Below, in pieces: positions 16,244-54,220 of a stretch of DNA of 55,581 nt. The stretch lies in the IMG/VR virus record IMGVR_UViG_3300045242_000134, positions 1-55,581 of that record. One strand, given 5' to 3'. This DNA is from a virus. Made by a program: the position numbers and the translations under genes. Each line of letters opens with the position of its first letter. Position 1 is the stretch's first letter. The notes under the pieces are model-generated. The model was not told the origin of the DNA. It saw only the letters and a list, made by a program, of their open reading frames with translations, and ran no database searches.

Positions 16244-16557
16244 CCCACCTGTTTCAAGATGCGTTCGAGGGTTTCGAGCATACGCTGCCAGCTTCGATAA
16301 TCTTTACGATCTCCTCGAACTGAAAAGAGCGCCTGCTTGTATTCGTCTCGCCCCTCTTTCAGCGTGAGAATGTCGTCGGGGGTGAGGACGATACTGCGCT
16401 CTAGAATTTCGCGGCATTCCATAATCAAATCTCGAACCGCATCTTGAGGCGTGACCATTTCAGGATTGAACAACCCGCCAACCGAAAGGTATTCGGTGAT
16501 GCGGTAGAGAATTTCCCTGCGTGTCATTGGGATTTTGGTTGAGGGTGTGGGGTGCAT
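16240..16557 (-). CDS. Helical protein, 105 aa, unknown
   Basis: ATG 16557 is chosen because it follows the upstream stop by 5 nt; ATG 16527 ('MTRREILYRITEYL') is an alternative. The sequence is mostly charged helix with 'DDILTLKEGRDEYKQALF'. No motif recognised. Confidence 0.6.
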   Translation of the reverse strand: MHPTPSTKIPMTRREILYRITEYLSVGGLFNPEMVTPQDAVRDLIMECREILERSIVLTPDDILTLKEGRDEYKQALFSVRGDRKDYRSWQRMLETLERILKQVG

Positions 16558-16562
16558 TGGTG

Positions 16563-16790
16563 TTATTGGAATGTTTCGTCGCAATCGCAGCGTATGTGTG
16601 CCATCACTTCCATCATCCAGTCAAGGCACCATGATTCTTCTTTCTTTGAGGCGATGCCTTGTTCTCCAGTGTGAATTCCTTCGCGGTCAGCGATGACAAT
16701 ATAGCGAAAATCTTTTTCACCGAATAACATGAACAAACGCTCGTAATCATCGGGGATTTTGAAATTTGGTTGGATGGTACGGAGGGGCAC
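16563..16790 (-). CDS. Small protein, 75 aa, first gene of minus operon
   Basis: The start is a GTG at 16790; an in-frame TGA lies 6 nt further upstream, so the gene cannot be longer. 'DFRYIVIADREGIHTGEQGI' suggests a compact alpha/beta fold. It lies about 27 nt downstream of the predicted start of the minus promoter in the 16806-16852 inverted repeat. Confidence 0.65.
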   Translation of the reverse strand: MPLRTIQPNFKIPDDYERLFMLFGEKDFRYIVIADREGIHTGEQGIASKKEESWCLDWMMEVMAHIRCDCDETFQ

Positions 16791-16805
16791 AATTCACGAA
16801 AGGTG

Positions 16806-16852
16806 TTGACACATAACGGCGTGATGATAAATAGTCCACAGTTATGTGTCAA
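16806..16852. promoter_or_regulatory. Divergent promoter pair inside a perfect 12-bp inverted repeat
   Basis: TTGACACATAAC (16806-16817) and GTTATGTGTCAA (16841-16852) are perfect complements, so each strand carries a TTGACA -35 box. On the minus strand TATCAT (5/6 to the -10 consensus) follows after 17 nt and would drive the operon at 16790. On the plus strand GATAAA/TAAATA (16826-16833) is a weaker -10 for the structured RNA. The dyad is a natural operator for a dimeric regulator that would control both directions. Confidence 0.65.
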
Positions 16853-17720
16853 GGCGTATCAGGTGCGTCAAAGCGTTCGGGATCCATCCGAACCCGCCGT
16901 GAGGCGTCTTCTACACATAACACCCCGTCGCTCTCCAAGCCTCGGGGATTTTTCACTATGGCAAGGCCCTCAGAAGCTTATCCTGTGAACTTCGACTGTC
17001 ATGGAACGGGAGTGTCTTTCTGTCCTCCCCTAACCTTCCTCAAAGGCATTCGTGCCCTTGGAAACCGGAACATGCTCCAGCCTAAGCAACCCCCACCTTT
17101 GGCCATCCGCCACCGGTGGAGATGCGAATCACCCGACACAAAAGGTCTGTCCGCACAGTGAAAACGTAGCCCAATCCCCGACGCCTGATTACCAGTCAGG
17201 CTTGTGCAAGGTTCGATTGGAACCGGGTTCGGAAGCTCTCCGACAAAAACCCGGACTTCTTCTAACGTGTCGGGTGTATTCTGCTCCGATGACTTTCTGA
17301 CTTCCAACGCCAAACTGTGCGTCGTACACCCTCGTCGTTCTCAAACCACAGGGATCGCTGTCAGCCCCGAAAAGGTGGTGTCCTCGTCGCTGCCAATGCC
17401 AACCCCATCGGCAAGAGCACGCACCCGTTGCAGGCGAAAAGACCAGTGCGAACGAGTACGGTGTGATCAGGTTCCCGATTTCGGGAAGATGATGGAAAAC
17501 CCAAAACCATTTCCGTGACACCACGAAAATGGTCACCAAGGAAAGTCCGCACGGTTTACGGAAGGGATGTTACTCACCCACCCGCGCTCACCAATCGGGG
17601 CCAGGGCAGGGTCTGGTGGGGACGGTCAACCGGGTTTAAGAGATTCCTTAAGCATTCTTTCTCCCTAGCTGCTTGGCTTGCCCTGTGGCGATTACACTAT
17701 GGACCACTATAACGGTAGGG
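16836..17720 (+). ncRNA. Candidate large ornate non-coding RNA, about 0.9 kb
   Basis: Frames up to 116 codons occur, but none has a ribosome site, protein-like composition or coupling, while hairpins are dense. GTTATGTGT (16841-16849) can pair with ACACATAAC (16913-16921) around GTTCGG/CCGAAC. CCCCG/CGGGG is followed by ATTTTT (16923-16952). GGCA-TTCG-TGCC is at 17045-17056 and GCCTGA/TCAGGC at 17183-17201. The two-tier stem CCGGGT/ACCCGG plus TCGGA/TCCGA spans 17223-17254. GGGTGTA/TACACCC is at 17272-17331, TTCCCG-ATTT-CGGGAA at 17472-17487, ACCATTT/AAATGGT with inner CGTG/CACG at 17506-17533, TTAAG/CTTAA at 17636-17651, and long-range CAGGGCA/TGCCCTG joins 17602-17608 to 17679-17685. Size, density, phage setting and own promoter recall GOLLD and ROOL RNAs, but I cannot assign it to either. 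The 3' end is uncertain. Confidence 0.65.
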
Positions 17721-17780
17721 TCACACAATCAAAGTCGCTCATATCCAAACGTGGAGCGAAATCCGTGGGGCCGAAATGCC

Positions 17781-18272
17781 CTAAAACGGGGTGTCTTCGG
17801 GTTTGGTGGGAATAGGCGCCGGTGGGGTAATGGCCGTCTCTGACGCGGGGCACGCGGTCGCAGGATTCACGCTTTGGTTCCCGCTATCGGGCATGGGGAA
17901 GGAGGATGGAGCGGATGGAATTGAGTGGGGTTTGGATGACTTGTGACGATGGCCGGAAAGCTCCATTTCCATATCAAAAAACAATCGCGCCACCTTGGCT
18001 CGTTTCATTGCTTGGTCCGCATCGGTAGCAAGCTCACTAGCTTTGGCGTGTCGTCTAAACGCCCGCCGAATAGCTGCCAGCAAGATTGATGCGGCTTTGG
18101 GTGTCAGGTTGCCGATTCCTGTCCTGGGCTTTCCTGGGGTTTGGACGGCTCGTCTTGCGTCAAATCCAGGCCTAAACGGTGGCCGGTATCCTTTGAGTAT
18201 CGGTATTCCGTTTTCGTCAATTTGCGGTGGGGATTGCAACGCGAGCACTGAGGCACGCCTACAGCAATCCAT
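17781..18272 (-). CDS. Basic protein, 163 aa, unknown
   Basis: Upstream codons stay open to 18665 but lose protein character, so ATG 18272 is used; AAAGGA lies immediately before it, closer than usual. The N-terminal half is basic with 'YRPPFRPGFDARRAVQ' and 'AAIRRAFRRHAKASELA'. The pattern 'F.PGFD.RR' is seen in some small-terminase-like and DNA-binding phage proteins. The last 55 aa are a Pro/Ser-rich tail. A small-terminase role is possible but weakly supported. It faces the ornate RNA region and ends about 60 nt beyond it. Confidence 0.55.
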   Translation of the reverse strand: MDCCRRASVLALQSPPQIDENGIPILKGYRPPFRPGFDARRAVQTPGKPRTGIGNLTPKAASILLAAIRRAFRRHAKASELATDADQAMKRAKVARLFFDMEMELSGHRHKSSKPHSIPSAPSSFPMPDSGNQSVNPATACPASETAITPPAPIPTKPEDTPF

Positions 18273-18306
18273 TCCTTTGGTCAAGCGCGGATTATTTTGC
18301 GAAAGT

Positions 18307-18337
18307 ATTTGACAACTTTGTGTGTTATGTGCGAATG
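18307..18337 (+). promoter_or_regulatory. Promoter/operator sharing 17 identical bases with 50155-50171
   Basis: ATTTGACAACTTTGTGT (18307-18323) is identical to 50155-50171 and the next 14 bases are 8/14 identical. TTGACA is at 18309-18314. A GTG start codon lies 36 nt after the first T. Both copies sit between divergent genes, so the shared block may be a regulator site as well as a promoter. Confidence 0.55.
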
Positions 18338-18344
18338 TTGTCTT

Positions 18345-18644
18345 GTGATCGTAGTGAACAAACTTTTCCCGTCTCATGCGTATTGCATCTTCGATGCGAC
18401 TACGATCACCGTGGGGCGGGTTTTTCCACTTATGAAAATAATCGAATACGATAATCCAAAAGTAGGCTGCTATGTCGATGAATCGGCGGGTGGTGCGGAT
18501 TGTCTCAATCGGCGCACTATTGAGTTTGCAGAGGATTACGGCTTCGTTGCCAAGGTGTCCGGCTGCTTGAGAATATGGCTGGTTGCCAATGCTACGACAG
18601 TGAAAGCGATCAAACGTTGCGGACTGCCCTGCTTGAGAACGTGA
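18345..18644 (+). CDS. Small protein, 99 aa, possibly leaderless
   Basis: GTG 18345 is proposed because it sits 36 nt after the TTGACA box, the same spacing as at two other early genes; ATG 18432 would give a 70-aa protein. The later part ('KIIEYDNPKVGCYVDE', 'TIEFAEDYGFVAKVSG') looks like a small alpha/beta protein with four cysteines. No family recognised. Another frame in the same place (18575-18682) also looks protein-like at its end, so the choice is not secure. Confidence 0.45.
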   Translation: MIVVNKLFPSHAYCIFDATTITVGRVFPLMKIIEYDNPKVGCYVDESAGGADCLNRRTIEFAEDYGFVAKVSGCLRIWLVANATTVKAIKRCGLPCLRT

Positions 18645-18682
18645 AGGACGGGACGGTTCCCGCATACGAGATTAACAACTAA
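18575..18682 (+). CDS. Possible 35-aa micropeptide, overlapping frame
   Basis: ATG 18575 opens 'MAGCQCYDSESDQTLRTALL' and ends 'KDGTVPAYEINN' just before a run of eight C residues. It overlaps the end of the previous gene in another frame, with no clear ribosome site. It is listed because the composition is protein-like. Confidence 0.3.
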   Translation: MAGCQCYDSESDQTLRTALLENVKDGTVPAYEINN

Positions 18683-18692
18683 CCCCCCCCCT

Positions 18693-19094
18693 ATGCCTAC
18701 ACAAACCATGAGCTATACACGAGTAATTCCTAGGGACCTATTCAACGAGGCTAACTTGCTCAAGTGTCTTGGCCAGCTTTATCTAAAACTTGAACAAGGC
18801 TGGCAGCAAATAGCTGAGTTGGAATATGATTCAGAGCAAGTCGAGGGCTTTGACATTCAGCAATCGTCCGATGATGGACACCTTTTTGTGGATAATGTCA
18901 GATTGAAGCTGTTGCGAAGCAAAATCAACGGAGGCTTACCTTGGCACTACATTTTGTTTCGGCCATTAAACAGCCGTGACCCTTATCCACTTTACTTAAA
19001 CCCCAGTTGGGACTCTGAACCTATTCCGGTATTCAATGACGCCGGGGAGCTTTCAACCGAGATGGTAGAACTACTAAAAAAGGAAACACTATGA
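18693..19094 (+). CDS. Conserved hypothetical phage/plasmid protein, 133 aa
   Basis: The pattern 'YTRVIPRDLFNEANLLKCLG' and later 'ILFRPLNSRDPYPLY' belongs to a conserved family of uncharacterised proteins that I recall from many phages and prophages. ATG 18693 or ATG 18708 could be the start; neither has a ribosome site. It is the first of a coupled string of small genes (ATGA with the next). Confidence 0.75.
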   Translation: MPTQTMSYTRVIPRDLFNEANLLKCLGQLYLKLEQGWQQIAELEYDSEQVEGFDIQQSSDDGHLFVDNVRLKLLRSKINGGLPWHYILFRPLNSRDPYPLYLNPSWDSEPIPVFNDAGELSTEMVELLKKETL

Positions 19095-43865: not shown

Positions 43866-43972
43866 CAGTTCCAAAAGAATCTATACTGACATTCGTAATA
43901 ATCAGTTCGCCACGGCTTTTTAACAAGCACTGTGGCGTAGCCATTGAGCATACAAATATAAAGATGCTTCAT
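43865..43972 (-). CDS. Micropeptide in sugar cassette, 35 aa
   Basis: ATG 43972 overlaps the radical-SAM stop (ATGA) and its own stop overlaps the methyltransferase start (TGATG). It opens 'MKHLYICMLNGYATVLVKK' and has an aromatic end. Coupling on both sides argues that it is translated. Confidence 0.55.
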   Translation of the reverse strand: MKHLYICMLNGYATVLVKKPWRTDYYECQYRFFWN

Positions 43973-45054
43973 GGCTCCCACTTCTTTCTGTCCACCAAAT
44001 GAAAATACATATTCGTTCGATACTTCAAACATTGCTTACAAAAAGCGTGCCCCGTTCGCTGCTCAATCATCTGCTCCGGCGTCGCGTCCAGATAATCAGT
44101 GAGCTTCAATCGCCTGTCAGCGGTGCACGCGCACAACGAAGTCTGCCCATCGTGACGGATGAAAGTAAACATCCCACCTGCACCTACCGGACACACGGAA
44201 GAAACTGGATACTCCTTATACATCTCACGAGCATTCGTCGGGGGTATCTTCAAACGCTCCATCGTTGCGATATAAGTATCGCCAACCGGGGGAAGAATTT
44301 TATTCCAGTCAGGCTTACCTTCAACCACTTCGAAGGGTGTGGCATCGGGGTCTTTGGAGCGGCAATATTGAATCGCATTCTCCATTGAAATCGCACGCGC
44401 CATTGAGGTAAAGAAACCAAGACCGAGATTCTTAGCATACTCGCGCATTGGTTCAATCTCGTGTTCGTTATCGTTATAGACGTGGTAGTTCACCGATATA
44501 CGAACGCGGCGTTCTTCTGGTATGCGATTGTTGGTTTCGGCCAGTATCCGCATGTTCTCTTTAACTCGTTCGATGTTGCCGCCAGCATGACCGCGAACGT
44601 AAATGTCTTGGGTAAACCCTGAGAGACTAATGATGATGAAATCGGGACGAGCGGTTAACACTTCCTCAACGCGATTGAGTTTGTTCAGATTAGTGGACAT
44701 TTCGGGATGCAGTCCCCAATCGTGAACGGCGGTAATGCACTCCGGTAAATTGGGATGCAGAAATGGCTCACTGTTGCCATACATAAAGACTATCGCATTG
44801 GAATTTTCCTTAGCGATTTTCTCAAGTATGGAGTTCATTAAATCCATGTCCATGAAACCACTTTTGTGTTCATAACGAAGTCCTTGAATCGGACGCTGAT
44901 TACCCTTGGTGCAGGTTGGACAGAATAGGTTGCAGGCGCTTCCGATCTCCAAAAACACCCGCCACGGTTTCAGCTTCACCGTATCCGCGCTGATAGCGCC
45001 GTCTATGAACGGGATGCAGGAGTCGGCGTAGGCTTGTTGGAGGGCGGTGGTCAT
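43969..45054 (-). CDS. Radical SAM enzyme with SPASM-like C-terminus, 361 aa
   Basis: ATG 45054 is 8 nt after the upstream stop; an alternative at 45087 overlaps it. 'EIGSACNLFCPTCTKGNQRP' carries CxxxCxxC for the 4Fe-4S cluster. 'FMYGNSEPFLHPNLPECITA' is the GGEP-like motif; 'LSGFTQDIYVRGHAGGNIER' is typical of the barrel. C-terminal Cys (VCPVGAGGM, CACTAD, FCKQCLKY) look like a SPASM or twitch auxiliary cluster. Targets in relatives are peptides or sugars. In this cassette a sugar or virion-peptide modification is plausible. Confidence 0.88.
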   Translation of the reverse strand: MTTALQQAYADSCIPFIDGAISADTVKLKPWRVFLEIGSACNLFCPTCTKGNQRPIQGLRYEHKSGFMDMDLMNSILEKIAKENSNAIVFMYGNSEPFLHPNLPECITAVHDWGLHPEMSTNLNKLNRVEEVLTARPDFIIISLSGFTQDIYVRGHAGGNIERVKENMRILAETNNRIPEERRVRISVNYHVYNDNEHEIEPMREYAKNLGLGFFTSMARAISMENAIQYCRSKDPDATPFEVVEGKPDWNKILPPVGDTYIATMERLKIPPTNAREMYKEYPVSSVCPVGAGGMFTFIRHDGQTSLCACTADRRLKLTDYLDATPEQMIEQRTGHAFCKQCLKYRTNMYFHLVDRKKWEP

Positions 45055-45061
45055 ACAAAGT

Positions 45062-46024
45062 TCATTCCTTTTCCCATATTTGCTCAAAGAAGCCTTCGGC
45101 CCTTAAAGGCAACGCTGGTTTTCGAGAGATGAGTTTGAGATTGGTGTTGGCCGAAACAACATCTCCAATGTGAGTTGCGAGTTCGTGATTTACTGATACA
45201 AACCTTCCCTTCTTTCGGAGCACTCTCTCAATGGATTTCACGCAATCTATTTGATCGTGCGAAAGAAATTCAACAATAGAATCTTCATTTACAACCAGAT
45301 CCATTTCTGTATCAGGCCAAGCCAATCCATGCACATGGACTGGGAAAAATCTGTCCTTAAGCTCTCCGTTTAACCAGACCTTATCCTCACCTATTTTCGC
45401 CATGGACAGGAATGCGAAAATAGATGCCATTATGAATAAATCTCGGGCGTGCCAAGTAATTCCAGGAATTTGCAATGCGAGCGCGGAAAGCCCCCCAGTT
45501 CCTGGACCTATTTCCAACACCGAGGCATTTGTAAGCATTGGCGCAAGTGTTTTGAAAAGCATGGTGTAATGCGCCACTCTCGGCTGAATCAGTTTTGTGT
45601 CCATGACTAGTCCACATGCTCCAAATGATTGCGGAATGCTTATATCGACACCCAAGCAAGTTTCAATTGACGACACTGCGTCTGCTAAGTTGTTTGGGGT
45701 TGGCAATCCCAACTCGATTGCACAAGATGAAATTGTCGATTTGATAAATTCAGGGTAGTTCTCTCCGGGCCACTGAGAGTCTGCATAGTATTTGGGTAAA
45801 TCTACTCCGTGGAGAATTGAGCCGTCGTATAAGTGTTCGAGTTCCTTTCGGATGGTGGGCACATCGCCTCCAGACAGAATGTCATGGAACTTTTTTTGAC
45901 AGGAATCGAATATCATACCCCAAGTTGATTGCGGTGGGGCTGGAGAAGATCTGCGGGAGTAAAACTCCACCACTCTTTTTATTGCGTTGTCAGAGAGTGG
46001 ACACCCGTAACATTGTGTGATCAC
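45062..46024 (-). CDS. SAM-dependent methyltransferase (sugar O-methyltransferase-like), 320 aa
   Basis: GTG 46024 overlaps the stop of the gene upstream (GTGA). 'ASVLEIGPGTGGLSALAL' (motif I, residues about 169-186) is preceded by a 165-aa helical domain, as in putative sugar O-methyltransferases. 'MDLVVNEDSIVEFLSHDQI' and 'LRKKGRFVSVNHELATH' complete the fold. The substrate is unknown. Confidence 0.8.
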   Translation of the reverse strand: MITQCYGCPLSDNAIKRVVEFYSRRSSPAPPQSTWGMIFDSCQKKFHDILSGGDVPTIRKELEHLYDGSILHGVDLPKYYADSQWPGENYPEFIKSTISSCAIELGLPTPNNLADAVSSIETCLGVDISIPQSFGACGLVMDTKLIQPRVAHYTMLFKTLAPMLTNASVLEIGPGTGGLSALALQIPGITWHARDLFIMASIFAFLSMAKIGEDKVWLNGELKDRFFPVHVHGLAWPDTEMDLVVNEDSIVEFLSHDQIDCVKSIERVLRKKGRFVSVNHELATHIGDVVSANTNLKLISRKPALPLRAEGFFEQIWEKE

Positions 46025-47482: not shown

Positions 47483-47694
47483 CGTCTCACCCCAATCTTC
47501 GCAAGTATCTGCCTGCCAATTTGAGAGTTAATGTAAACCTCCTTGAGATTTTTCATCTTGCAAAATATCTGAGCGGAAGCGAACAAGTTGAATGAGGCTA
47601 TGTCTCCGTTTTCCCAATAGACTCGACCATCCAATGTAAACAGCAGATAGCGTTCAAATACCCGATCCCAAAGAATGATGACGGGAGTGATCAC
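47479..47694 (-). CDS. Small protein, 71 aa, in sugar cassette
   Basis: GTG 47694 overlaps the stop of the large glycosyltransferase. 'MITPVIILWDRVFERYLLFT' then 'LDGRVYWENGDIASFNLF'. Beta-rich start, basic C-terminal helix. No family. Confidence 0.55.
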   Translation of the reverse strand: MITPVIILWDRVFERYLLFTLDGRVYWENGDIASFNLFASAQIFCKMKNLKEVYINSQIGRQILAKIGVRR

Positions 47695-49049
47695 GCCAAC
47701 ATCTCCTCTGACAGTTTGTAATACGCTCCCGGTCGTTCAATTCTCGTGTTGGGATTTTTCGTCCACTCCTCGACCACCACTTTCTTGTGCAGTCCGTGGG
47801 CAATCGCCAGTGGTAGGCTTTGATTCATCACGCATAGCTTCGCACCTGCAATCACTCTCGCCAACTCCAAAGCGTCTTTAGTAGGTCGATAATCAAACTT
47901 GCATTGAGGGGCAAATCCGCAGAACGCTTCATATTCTTGAGGCGTGCCCACAAACGTCATTTGCCGGTGAAATTTCTCAATGAACCGCGTCCAGTTGAAG
48001 TCAAGATTCTGATAGCGGGCCGTTCGATTCACTATGATGGGCTTGTCTGGAATTACAACTGGTTCTGGTACGGCCAACCATGGGACAGATGGCATGGGCA
48101 ACGAGAAAGCGTCCATGTGCAGCTTTAGTATAGAATCGAAATCGCGTGCGGTTCGATTTCGCCACGGAATGCGAAATCGGTTCAGGTCGTGTGTCGTTGA
48201 TGCCGGATGCCCGTGCGTGTAACGACATTTCAAAATGTAAGGCTGCGCTTCGACCAACGGCGCGAGGTTATCCACCCAATCAGCTTCGCCGCCCATCCTG
48301 GCCCAACGGCTGTTGAGCGGATACGGATAACGATTGTGCGGCGTGAGAAACATCATACCGCCGCCAAGAGCCTTGACCGCTGCGAGGCTATAAATCAGAT
48401 CGCCAGCATCGCCAGAGTGAGTGAATATGTTGCAGACGCGATGTTCGGCGGGAAGTGGTGTGAGAAGGCTATGGAAACCAAATTGGTTGTGCCAGTGGCT
48501 ATTGGTTCCGCCCCATTCTTTTCCATTCCAAGAACGCCCCTCAAAAGCAAATCGTTTTGCAATTTCCGGTGGAGCAAATCTAAATCCAGCCTTCTCGATT
48601 TCATCGCGGTGCCGAACGCAGATGCACGAGTCCTCTGGGTGGAAGTCATCCCACGGTTGTTTTGAAATCCATTCCATCAGCTTTTTGCTTCGGAGCGAAA
48701 AACCACCGTTCCCTATGATGCCACTCGGATTAAACGGAGCGCCAATGTAATCATACTTCAAAAAATCATCAGCCCACGCCTGCCCGTTCAAAACAAAACC
48801 ATCGTATTGGCAAATTAGCGCGTGAGTGGTATCCACATACTTGTGCATTTCACGGATGCAGAATTTGGAGTAATCATCAAGACCCGAAATGAGCGGTAAA
48901 ACTTTGCTATGGAACCATCGACTATTCAAAAACTTCACGTCTCCAAAGTCACACTGGTCCATGGACTTCTTCATTGCCATTTCAGACCAATGGGCTTTAT
49001 CCGTGCAATCCGCGCACAACAAAGTGACTTGTGGAAGCTTGGGCTTCAC
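47691..49049 (-). CDS. Two-domain glycosyltransferase: DUF5672-like plus GT-B/GT9-like, 452 aa
   Basis: Residues about 1-190: 'THALICQYDGFVLNGQAWAD', 'KYDYIGAPFNPSGIIGNGGF' and 'SLRSKKLMEWISKQ' are the DUF5672 signature (CQYDGF, DYIGAPW, GNGGFSLRS). Residues about 200-452: 'NIFTHSGDAGDLIYSLAAVK', 'IIVNRTARYQNLDFNWTRFI', 'MTFVGTPQEYEAFCGF' and 'VIAGAKLCVMNQSLPLAIAH' look like a GT-B fold near family 9 (heptosyltransferase-like). The fusion suggests two successive glycosyl transfers or a donor-acceptor pair. Confidence 0.8.
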   Translation of the reverse strand: MKPKLPQVTLLCADCTDKAHWSEMAMKKSMDQCDFGDVKFLNSRWFHSKVLPLISGLDDYSKFCIREMHKYVDTTHALICQYDGFVLNGQAWADDFLKYDYIGAPFNPSGIIGNGGFSLRSKKLMEWISKQPWDDFHPEDSCICVRHRDEIEKAGFRFAPPEIAKRFAFEGRSWNGKEWGGTNSHWHNQFGFHSLLTPLPAEHRVCNIFTHSGDAGDLIYSLAAVKALGGGMMFLTPHNRYPYPLNSRWARMGGEADWVDNLAPLVEAQPYILKCRYTHGHPASTTHDLNRFRIPWRNRTARDFDSILKLHMDAFSLPMPSVPWLAVPEPVVIPDKPIIVNRTARYQNLDFNWTRFIEKFHRQMTFVGTPQEYEAFCGFAPQCKFDYRPTKDALELARVIAGAKLCVMNQSLPLAIAHGLHKKVVVEEWTKNPNTRIERPGAYYKLSEEMLA

Positions 49050-51092: not shown

Positions 51093-51535
51093 AACAGACC
51101 TACACCTGCCCCGAATGCCAAGACGATATTGAATGCGACGAGAACGCGAAGGCTTGCACCTGCCCATCGTGCAAAACCGAGTATCGAATTGACCACGATG
51201 CGGAACAAATCGAGGGCGTTTGGAAGGATCGCACGACACTTACGCCAGTGAATAAATGCACAGAATGCGGCACTGAAATACCGAACGACATTTGGAAAGA
51301 CCCAATGGTTCGCGAAGCACTTAAAGATGGACGCAGTGCCGACGGTATTATGGTTATCGCCTGCCCGAAATGTAACCGATATGGTTACTACAACGAAGGG
51401 TCACATTTTTCCTGCCGGTTTTGTAACGAAACTTTTCACATTACCGATTCGGATGAATTTGAACCAGTTACTTTGGCTGACACAATTACTGAAACAACTG
51501 AAGGCTACCACAACGAGACTATGCCGCATAATTAA
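51089..51535 (+). CDS. Multi-zinc-ribbon protein, 148 aa
   Basis: ATG 51089 overlaps the previous stop. Three CxxC pairs are seen: CPECQDDIEC...CPSC (residues about 7-30), CTECGTEIP (about 56) and CPKCNRYGYY...CRFCNETF (about 90-112). Probably binds nucleic acid or bridges proteins. Its end overlaps the terminase end by 17 bases, with no terminator between these converging genes. Confidence 0.75.
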   Translation: MKQTYTCPECQDDIECDENAKACTCPSCKTEYRIDHDAEQIEGVWKDRTTLTPVNKCTECGTEIPNDIWKDPMVREALKDGRSADGIMVIACPKCNRYGYYNEGSHFSCRFCNETFHITDSDEFEPVTLADTITETTEGYHNETMPHN

Positions 51536-53312
51536 GTTCGTGCGATTCCCTCAACTTCCTCGACTTCGAAATCAGGTCAGTAATCCATTCGTGGTTTGAA
51601 CTGTCTTCTTCAAGGTTCACCATCTTCTTGATTTGGAAACCTCGGCGTCGTGCGCCTTCAAGAACTATCGCCGCCCAATCGTAAAGGTCTGGTGATTGGC
51701 CTGTGCGTTCCTTCATCTTCATCTTCGGCTCAATCTCAATCTTGTTACCAGCAACCTCACTCCACTCGCGCATACAACCGTCGTCAATCACCTCCTCGAT
51801 TAGCCCGCGCACTTGACCGGCGACAATCGCATAGCGCGTTGACCACCACAGTTCGGATACGAATTTCGAGTAGTGTTCTTTGCACGTCTTAAGTCGCCGC
51901 TGACCATTTCGGTCCATGATGTAATGGTCCATGGTCACGGGTCGATCACTTGGGCTTCCTCCAAATTCAACAGGGTTGATGTTCGCACTCCATATGCGGG
52001 CAAGTGATGGACCGAGACTGCCGCGCCCAGTTGAATCGTAAAACATATTCTCTGGCGGGATGCCATTGCTTTGGCAAAAGTTTCTCACCCACTCTGCAAT
52101 CTGGTCTTCGGGAAGCTTCGGGATGTTCACCACGATTGGAACGATGACCGGCTTCCAGTATTTCAAAATCGTAGCACCTTGAACATCTCGACCAAACTCA
52201 CCGTAGCCACCCACGCAGCGATCACCGCCCGCGCCACCGTAAGCGGCGTCCAATCCGAATATCTTGACGCGTGGACTACCATCCCAAATCACATCTTCCA
52301 GCGCCTTGTTTTGCTTGCACAGTTGAAAGCTGATAACGCGCTTGGCATTAAGACCCGATTTGCGAACACCCAACGCTTGCGAATAATACTGGTGAGAATC
52401 TTTGCCGTAACCGGCGATGACGCGCTCGATTGAATCCTGGTTGAGCATTCCACTGAATTTGTCCTTCGTCTCTTTGTCGAAGTTCGGGCTATCAGGACCG
52501 TAGAGACAAATCGTGCGACTATTGAGGAACCGGCGATTCTTCCAAACCGTTGTCTTGGTTGGCTCAGGCATTGATTCCCAACCGCACTCAGGTTCAGCGA
52601 GTTTATCCAGCGGATCGTTCTGGCCAATTGGGTTGCCGTCAAAGATGCCCTTGTAATCACCGCTGTTCATGTTGCCGATAGACTCAAGCATACCCGGCCC
52701 CATGAACTGCATTTCATTTCCCAAATGGCGACGACGCTTTTGTTTGATGCCCACGTAGGGTGCAATCGACTGAAACTCGCCAGTAGAAGTTTTGCACGCA
52801 ACACAGATGAGTCCTTTGCGCATATCGCGCACATCGCTCTCGTCTTCCAAGTCATCGGTCGAAATCGCTTTCTTGCTGTCGAGGACGTTGCCAGATAGCC
52901 ATGGATGTTTTAACCGAGCAGAACGAAACAGCATCTTAATGTCACCCCACACGCGAGTTTCGATGGCCACCAAAGTCGTTGAAGAAATCAGGATGAGTGT
53001 TGTTTCTGGGAACGCCCAATAATCGACCAATGCGAATTTGGAAATTGTGCGCGTCTTGCCACAGTCCTTTGGTCCGGTAACAACCGTGATGGTGTTGTTG
53101 ATTATTTCGGAGAGTATAAGGTCCGTCCATCGGTTTAAATACTCATCGGGCCAAAGGAGTTTAGTTGCTTCTCGGTAGTGGTGAAATAGCCCAAGCCCAA
53201 CCTCTTTTCCCCCGCTGATGTATTTGCCTCCCTGCTGAATTATGTGAAATTCTATTTTAAGCGCGTCTGCGTCATCAGGCCATTCAGCGTTATATCGCTC
53301 AAACATCTGCAT
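51519..53312 (-). CDS. terL: Terminase large subunit, 597 aa
   Basis: ATG 53312 (AGGT at 7-nt spacing) is preferred; a longer frame would run into the divergent gene. The ATPase has 'VVTGPKDCGKTRTISKF' (Walker A variant GPxxCGKT, residues about 77-93) and 'TTLILISSTT' (strand before Walker B). The nuclease has 'KIFGLDAAYGGAGGDRC' (first Asp), 'NMFYDSTGRGSLG' (second) and 'SPDLYDWAAIVLEGARRR' (third). It cuts and pumps DNA through the portal. No small subunit was recognised with confidence. Confidence 0.9.
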   Translation of the reverse strand: MQMFERYNAEWPDDADALKIEFHIIQQGGKYISGGKEVGLGLFHHYREATKLLWPDEYLNRWTDLILSEIINNTITVVTGPKDCGKTRTISKFALVDYWAFPETTLILISSTTLVAIETRVWGDIKMLFRSARLKHPWLSGNVLDSKKAISTDDLEDESDVRDMRKGLICVACKTSTGEFQSIAPYVGIKQKRRRHLGNEMQFMGPGMLESIGNMNSGDYKGIFDGNPIGQNDPLDKLAEPECGWESMPEPTKTTVWKNRRFLNSRTICLYGPDSPNFDKETKDKFSGMLNQDSIERVIAGYGKDSHQYYSQALGVRKSGLNAKRVISFQLCKQNKALEDVIWDGSPRVKIFGLDAAYGGAGGDRCVGGYGEFGRDVQGATILKYWKPVIVPIVVNIPKLPEDQIAEWVRNFCQSNGIPPENMFYDSTGRGSLGPSLARIWSANINPVEFGGSPSDRPVTMDHYIMDRNGQRRLKTCKEHYSKFVSELWWSTRYAIVAGQVRGLIEEVIDDGCMREWSEVAGNKIEIEPKMKMKERTGQSPDLYDWAAIVLEGARRRGFQIKKMVNLEEDSSNHEWITDLISKSRKLRESHELNYAA

Positions 53313-53347
53313 TGACTTTACCTGTTGACCGATTAAGAGTCGAGAAT

Positions 53348-54220
53348 ATGAGTCCTGCTGATTGCTGCTCTCCCTGTGATAGTCAAGTTGCACCAGTCAA
53401 CATTGTGGGGTCACAGGGGCCAGCGGGAGCGGCGGGAACCAATGGCACGAATGGAGTCAGCGCGTTTACCACAACCACTGCACAGTTTACCTCTCCGGCA
53501 GATCTTACAACAGCCTTCACTGTCTCAGTCGCCAACTCAACGTGGTGTGTTGTTGGCCAAGACCTCATAATTGGGCAAGGTCCAGGTGTGGCACTCGCAA
53601 ATCCCGGCCCGTGCGCGGTCGTCATTACAGCCATTCCTTCACCGAATGCAATTACGGTAAAGAATCTCCGCGTGGTTGATGAGAACGTTACGGTAAGTGC
53701 TGGAGCGTTGGTGTCAGTCAGCGGATTCCTACCAGCGGTGCCGGTGTTGATTTCGCAGGGTGGAACTTCGTCAACTACAAAGGCAGCGGCACAGACTGCG
53801 TTGGGGTTGGGGCAGAATTCAATCATCTCAAGCGGCGCGGCGCTGGCGCAGGCAATTACAGCAGCAAGCCTTCAAGTAGGAGCGATTGACGTGACTCTGC
53901 CTGCTTTGGGTTCTTATGAACTGCGAGGACAAGTTGGGATTGATTTCAACGGAGTCACCTTTGCGGCCAGTCGAACAATCACTGTTAAGATTCGCAATAT
54001 CACTCAAGCCAGCGATCTTGTGAGTGGTGTTTTGCACACGCAGGCGGTTACAACCCTTAGTTTCCCAACTCACTTTCTCCAACTCCCCCCACTTCGATAT
54101 GATACGGCTGGAGTGAATGATCACCTCCAGCTATTTTGCACCATTGACGTGATAAATTCAGCAGGCACGTTGAGTTTGGATTCTGGATCCTTGGAAGCAA
54201 TACCGCTTAGACAGAGTTAG
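53348..54220 (+). CDS. Virion fibre/decoration protein with collagen-like stretch, 290 aa
   Basis: ATG 53348 gives 'MSPADCCSPCDSQVAPVNIV', then a short collagen repeat (GPAGAAGTNGTNG, residues about 22-34), a beta-rich middle and a C-terminal domain of about 130 aa that looks like a receptor-binding or trimer head. The CCSPC start recalls the cysteine anchors of the decoration proteins at 29986-32158. It leads the plus-strand virion operon that continues across the circle junction. TTGACT lies 36 nt upstream. Confidence 0.72.
   Translation: MSPADCCSPCDSQVAPVNIVGSQGPAGAAGTNGTNGVSAFTTTTAQFTSPADLTTAFTVSVANSTWCVVGQDLIIGQGPGVALANPGPCAVVITAIPSPNAITVKNLRVVDENVTVSAGALVSVSGFLPAVPVLISQGGTSSTTKAAAQTALGLGQNSIISSGAALAQAITAASLQVGAIDVTLPALGSYELRGQVGIDFNGVTFAASRTITVKIRNITQASDLVSGVLHTQAVTTLSFPTHFLQLPPLRYDTAGVNDHLQLFCTIDVINSAGTLSLDSGSLEAIPLRQS

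Follow-up and report, generated by a model that had tools for sequence, protein, structure and literature searches.

Noncoding DNA in a 55,581-bp record of an uncultured virus of bacteria, a phage (IMGVR_UViG_3300045242_000134, analyzed over its whole length and called the window here), was found to combine a folded RNA with a site shared across a phage clade. Comparison with related sequences showed that positions 16841-17321 encode a predicted plus-strand structured RNA, which has no coding capacity and belongs to a family absent from Rfam. The noncoding segment was also shown to end at an element of ~95 bp that is present once in almost every phage of the clade, where it mostly faces a small convergent gene. 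The combination of structured RNA and clade-wide site is well supported by these comparisons, and we regard it as very probable. As to what the two do, our tentative preference is for a new structured RNA that would be transcribed towards, and would act at, a cis-acting replication-type site. The features are listed in Table 1.

Table 1 Features of the noncoding segment and its neighbors. Positions are those of the window; G003 (IMGVR_UViG_3300045282_000096) is the closest relative.
Feature	Positions	Strand	Remarks
Left neighbor, 75-aa gene	16563-16790	-	Points away from the RNA; G003 identity 98.7%; codon score +9.4
Noncoding region	16791-17780		Between the 75-aa gene and a convergent gene ending at 17781
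Inverted repeat TTGACACATAAC / GTTATGTGTCAA	16806-16852		12/12 complementary; 23 bp between arms
5' domain, ~80-nt hairpin closed by GUUAUGUGU/ACACAUAAC	16841-16922	+	z -6.1; covariation in inner hairpin
Middle of RNA	16923-17128	+	Holds UUCG hairpin 17045-17056 and pair 17094/17118
Core domain	17129-17302	+	10-bp helix CACCCGACAC (17130-17139) / GUGUCGGGUG (17267-17276) around two-tier stem
Two-tier stem	17223-17254	+	Outer CCGGGTT/AACCCGG; inner CGGA-AGCTC-TCCG; one-sided ACAAA bulge
Fast-changing 3' part of noncoding segment	17322-17557	+	Aligns poorly with G003; fold energy close to chance
Clade-wide 3' element, ~95 bp	17558-17650	+	G-rich tract, GC tract, GGG-ACGGTC (17622-17627), AAGAGATTCCTT (17638-17649)
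Tandem quasi-palindromic boxes AAGAGATTCCTT + AAGCATTCTT	17638-17659
Right neighbor, convergent gene	17781-18665	-	Start codon uncertain; G003 identity 30%

A noncoding segment behind a divergent promoter region

We scored the open reading frames within 16791-17780 and found negative codon scores for all of them (-3.6 to -10.5), while the two genes to the left scored +9.4 and +7.6. The differences between the window and G003 were spread evenly over the codon positions (16/13/11) and included single-base indels. Because the scores are negative and the differences have no codon periodicity, we consider the region noncoding. This bears out the preliminary description, which had seen no credible protein there and had named a codon-substitution signal as the finding that would speak against an RNA; none was seen against G003. 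Open frames of up to 116 aa could be taken to indicate a frameshifted or overlooked protein-coding gene, but the scores, the even spread of changes, the indels and the double changes at paired positions described below make such a gene extremely improbable. The neighboring genes and most large proteins of the window gave weak or no matches in PHROGs and Pfam. Conservation of the right neighbor was confined to its C-terminal part, a short helical hairpin.

The inverted repeat at the left end of the region contains two divergent -35 hexamers. The minus-strand promoter, TTGACA-17-TATCAT (11/12), would serve the left gene, and its -10 is intact in G003. The TTGACA promoter at which the RNA had been said to start is present on the plus strand as TTGACA-18-AATAGT (10/12), but its -10 is altered in G003. 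Judged from these motifs, 16806-16852 is probably a divergent promoter/operator.

Folding and covariation of the plus-strand RNA

The fold energy of the whole region corresponded to z -2.96 on the plus strand and -3.14 on the minus strand, and 16836-17321 taken as one piece reached about -4.5 on both. The strands were found to differ in two sub-regions, 16841-16922 (-6.1 on plus versus -2.5 on minus) and 17129-17302 (-3.4 versus -1.1), and these values are somewhat flattering because the parts were selected after the fold was known. The middle of the RNA folded weakly alone (z -0.6), and 17322-17649 was near chance (z only -1.2). The 0.9-kb structured interval of the preliminary description was therefore too generous on its 3' side, its strong structure being that of 16841-17321. 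The same description had called the region hairpin-dense, which did not hold: perfect hairpins of at least 5 bp numbered 6, compared with a mean of 6.5 in dinucleotide shuffles, and those of at least 6 bp numbered 3 versus 1.4. Of the individual stems it had pointed out, the two-tier stem was found at exactly its positions and the UUCG-capped hairpin reads GGCA-UUCG-UGCC. A long-range 7-bp pairing (17602-17608/17679-17685) is present in the letters of the window, but its partner is missing in G003 as read by eye.

G003 is 93% identical to the window over 16841-17321. The larger block 16562-17321 is shared at 94% identity while most G003 proteins are merely 50-80% identical, a pattern that phage mosaicism can explain. 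We folded the window and G003 together with alifold and obtained z -5.7 on the plus strand, with 4 pairs changed on both sides versus 0.8 in column-shuffled alignments; the minus strand was weaker (z -3.9). In G003, G-C became C-G at 16880/16888 (inner hairpin of the 5' domain) and at 17135/17271 (the 10-bp core helix), C-G became G-C at 17094/17118, and the fourth case is the boundary pair 16837/17319. No pair was broken, and one-sided changes yield G-U or A-U pairs on the plus strand. Covarying pairs in homologues, which had been proposed as a check, were thus found beyond chance. They support the proposed large structured noncoding RNA over 16841-17321 rather than across the whole interval.

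A further relative, L078 (IMGVR_UViG_3300041926_000033), was recovered independently through the 3' element and matches 17171-17325 (profile, E 4e-6). It has a conserved CGGAAGCTCTCCGA hairpin inside an outer helix TCCTGG/CCAGGA, versus CCGGGTT/AACCCGG in the window, and a long-range helix CGCCC/GGGCG where the window has CACCC/GGGTG (RNA CACCC/GGGUG). Covariation of the core comes from three sequences only (window, G003 and L078), one of which is 93% identical. Two other carriers of the element, L103 and L118, have a related hairpin, CGRA-CGCTC-TYCG. A covariance model of the core built from the three sequences finds only those three, so the membership of L103 and L118 remains a suggestion. 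Searches of IMG/VR returned G003 and chance matches only for a 16-mer of the RNA, and G003 and L078 only for a 19-mer of the core stem. By blastn against 50,697 phage records, the region gave a single 28-bp match at chance level (E 0.4).

In L071 and L134, a pair of carriers whose sequence is unrelated to the window, the plus strand had a consensus-fold z of -3.4 with 14 double changes versus 5.7, and the minus strand z -1.2. A poorly aligned control pair gave no consensus-fold signal on the plus strand. Across the upstream segments of 40 carriers the mean folding z was just -0.43, no clear excess, and strong structure is therefore not general among carriers.

Comparison with known RNA families

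The preliminary description had offered GOLLD and ROOL as candidate identities. Scanning the whole window with Rfam models (cmscan, gathering score) gave no match, including to GOLLD, ROOL, OLE and HEARO, and a scan of 16500-18700 at E<=5 also gave none. GOLLD, ROOL, OLE, HEARO or another Rfam family is ruled out, as covariance-model matches are absent. Rfam scans of the 25 related loci, in other carriers, returned nothing but one ordinary tRNA (in L124), and ARAGORN found no tRNA genes in the window. In the openly accessible literature, our search found no large phage RNAs beyond GOLLD, ROOL and OLE.

GOLLD is often located near tRNA genes or contains them, and GOLLD and ROOL form homo-oligomeric RNA cages. 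GOLLD is a large phage-encoded structured RNA whose 5' part is variable and whose 3' end is conserved, and ROOL is a phage-encoded RNA of ~0.6 kb with an elaborate fold (PMC12286853). The window RNA resembles GOLLD in being large, structured and phage-encoded with a variable 5' part and a conserved 3' end, but differs in the missing covariance-model match, in having no tRNA nearby and in having no supported helices in the 3' element. It shares with ROOL the phage origin, elaborate fold and similar size; in contrast, it has few relatives, no covariance-model match and no tRNA island.

A 3' element shared by an uncultured phage clade

The 3' element is the most widespread feature, shared by the whole uncultured phage clade, and was missed in the first reading. 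A divergent relative (G005) retains only a short motif in the corresponding spacer, and searching IMG/VR with this motif yielded about 45 distinct carriers, mostly contigs of 51-59 kb; overall, about 50 phages have the element, each of them once. The general layout is a G-rich tract, a GC tract, GGGACGGTC, a spacer of 6-16 bp and then AAAGAGATTCCTT / AAG..CTT boxes. The GC tract extends over 20 bp, with G or C predominating in columns -26 to -8 and the polarity going either way, and the G-rich tract lies near -58. We then sampled the clade by its terminase, which was chosen to remove the bias of an exact 12-mer search. Among near-complete genomes sampled by large terminase alone, 26 of 29 contained the element at E<=0.01, with the 12-mer variants AAGCATGCTT, AAGGAGACTCCTT, AAGGGATTCCTT and AAGAATGCTT, all AAG..CTT quasi-palindromes. 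The element was single-copy in 15 of 15 genomes examined, and one contig from a Verrucomicrobia MAG (L164, 759-993) has two elements in tandem, ~140 bp apart.

Fixed-register covariation in the element was no better for the top column pair than for shuffled columns, and no terminator-like hairpin with a T run was found there. The element has the look of a DNA site, not of an RNA helix, and we read it as a putative protein-binding site because of the AAG..CTT quasi-palindromes. The noncoding segment ahead of it ranges from ~0.2 to 1.1 kb across carriers, and since some of them (L062 and L141) have <200 nt left before it, the element needs no long RNA.

The clade consists of uncultured phages of ~51-59 kb. 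Its large terminase is encoded in the window at 51519-53393 on the minus strand (Walker A GPKDCGKT, by reading), and related genes were found in 19 of 20 carriers. IMG/VR holds 265 relatives of this terminase, and the 50,697 phage records none. Two MAG contigs labeled Verrucomicrobia/Pedosphaera carry the element, the Pedosphaera MAG has a terminase fragment too, and the exact motif occurs in only that MAG among 388 genomes of its phylum. This weakly suggests a verrucomicrobial host. Among the presumed structural genes, the window also has genes for a radical-SAM-like cysteine-motif protein (43969-45087, by reading; 80% identity in G003) and a DUF5672 protein (47691-49049, Pfam E 3e-18), both on the minus strand.

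Genome surroundings and contig ends

In most carriers the element is approached by small convergent genes on the minus strand, and in several the right gene's stop codon lies directly against it. The convergent gene of L144, L080 and L073 reads the conserved 12-mer in frame, so that its product has KESL at or near its end, and in L109 a serine recombinase/resolvase-like gene (by reading) replaces the usual small protein. Twelve carriers have a winged-helix gene beside the element, which is DnaD-like or replication-initiator-like with weak profile support; short direct repeats (GATACA, AGAAGC) and palindromes lie between the two. Palindromes were also seen just upstream of the element in L048, L041, L137 and L062, namely TGTTCCACGTGGAACA (parS-like), TTCCACATGGAACA and TGATACA-GTGT-TGTATCA. 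On the left of the element, at 3.6-5.1 kb, the window encodes Toprim and helicase proteins, and a RecT gene lies 4.1 kb away on the other side. Cumulative GC skew, a weak origin proxy in phages, placed the element at no consistent extreme in 15 genomes.

Contig ends were moderately enriched within 500 bp of the element (6 of 56 versus 1.0 expected, p 6e-4), which could reflect assembly trouble at the GC tracts or a real terminus. Both ends of one contig (G418, IMGVR_UViG_3300021079_000011) lie exactly within the element and share a 25-nt direct repeat, GACCGTCCCCACACCCCCCACCCCC, and the right end of another (G425) stops inside it. Like a cos or pac site, the element is short, conserved, GC-rich and single-copy, with a few contigs ending inside; unlike one, it is not beside the terminase gene in the window, and most contigs run through it. 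The distance to the terminase gene (~22 kb in the window) and the strand relative to it, which differs across genomes, count against a classical cos/pac site.

Possible roles of the RNA and the element

In the cis-acting reading that we tentatively prefer, transcription would begin in the divergent promoter region (16806-16852) and run towards the element; the RNA would end at or just past 17650 with a length of about 800 nt. At the DNA level, a protein would bind the AAG..CTT quasi-palindromes beside ACGGTC, and the G/C tracts would favor an R-loop or a stalled transcript. The folded body would act in cis by controlling whether the nascent transcript remains hybridized at the GC tract, and the hybridized transcript would be cut there, or would go on to serve phage DNA replication as a primer or a signal. 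Origins of the ColE1 RNA II and T4 oriF types are RNA-primed, with a structured transcript that enters a site rich in G/C and adjacent to replication genes. The window may resemble them in having a structured RNA upstream of a G/C-rich site with replication genes near, but no sequence relation to them is in evidence and GC skew is unsupportive. We offer the replication role of the RNA in cis as a hypothesis, and a doubtful one.

Two rivals are serious. The RNA could act in trans as a large ornate RNA of the GOLLD/ROOL kind, made during infection, abundant, self-folding and perhaps self-assembling, with the element marking a processed or terminated RNA end. That the RNA is ~0.5-0.8 kb long, is encoded by a phage, folds extensively and shows covariation fits this idea, as does the GOLLD-like pairing of a conserved 3' end with a variable 5' part (PMC12286853). 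Rfam matches to GOLLD or ROOL and tRNA genes in the window are however absent, base pairing is not seen in the element, and turnover of the body is so rapid that a model search recovered just G003 and L078, some carriers being nearly bodiless; we consider a trans-acting RNA rather unlikely. Somewhat less likely again is that the segment works throughout as DNA, as an origin, partition or packaging/terminus region, and that its stems are incidental or act as DNA hairpins. The near-universal, single-copy element with its quasi-palindromic boxes and GC tracts speaks for a DNA-level site, as do the excess of contig ends and the contig that starts and stops in the element with a 25-nt terminal repeat. 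The strand preference speaks against it: both the consensus fold and the strongest sub-domains score better on the plus strand than on the minus strand, and changes on a single side of a pair are compatible with G-U pairing when read on the plus strand. The passage of most contigs through the element and the lack of a cos/pac site next to the terminase gene also count against a DNA-level site.

The segment might instead be a long 3' or 5' UTR or attenuator of a neighboring gene, in which case the element would terminate convergent transcripts. The convergent right gene, whose stop codon abuts the element in several carriers, and the strong promoter that diverges towards the left gene are consistent with this, but there is no terminator-like hairpin with a T run, the element is more conserved than an intrinsic terminator requires, and no plus-strand gene adjoins the segment in the window for such a UTR to serve. 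We regard a UTR or terminator as improbable.

Implications

To our knowledge, very few families of large phage RNAs have been described, none with a settled function. The RNA described here adds a family that is not in Rfam and is tied to a near-universal site of an uncultured phage clade. As the 3' element occurs once per genome, is short and can be located with a simple model, a role as an origin, a terminus or an RNA end would be directly testable given a cultured host or a plasmid carrying the site. The folded RNA together with the near-universal site points to an RNA- or DNA-based control step in the viruses of this clade. An unlikely but specific form of it is that the clade would start or end replication at the ~95-bp site under the control of a fast-evolving structured RNA of a new family that is transcribed into the site; this would be the phage equivalent of an RNA-primed origin of the ColE1 type.
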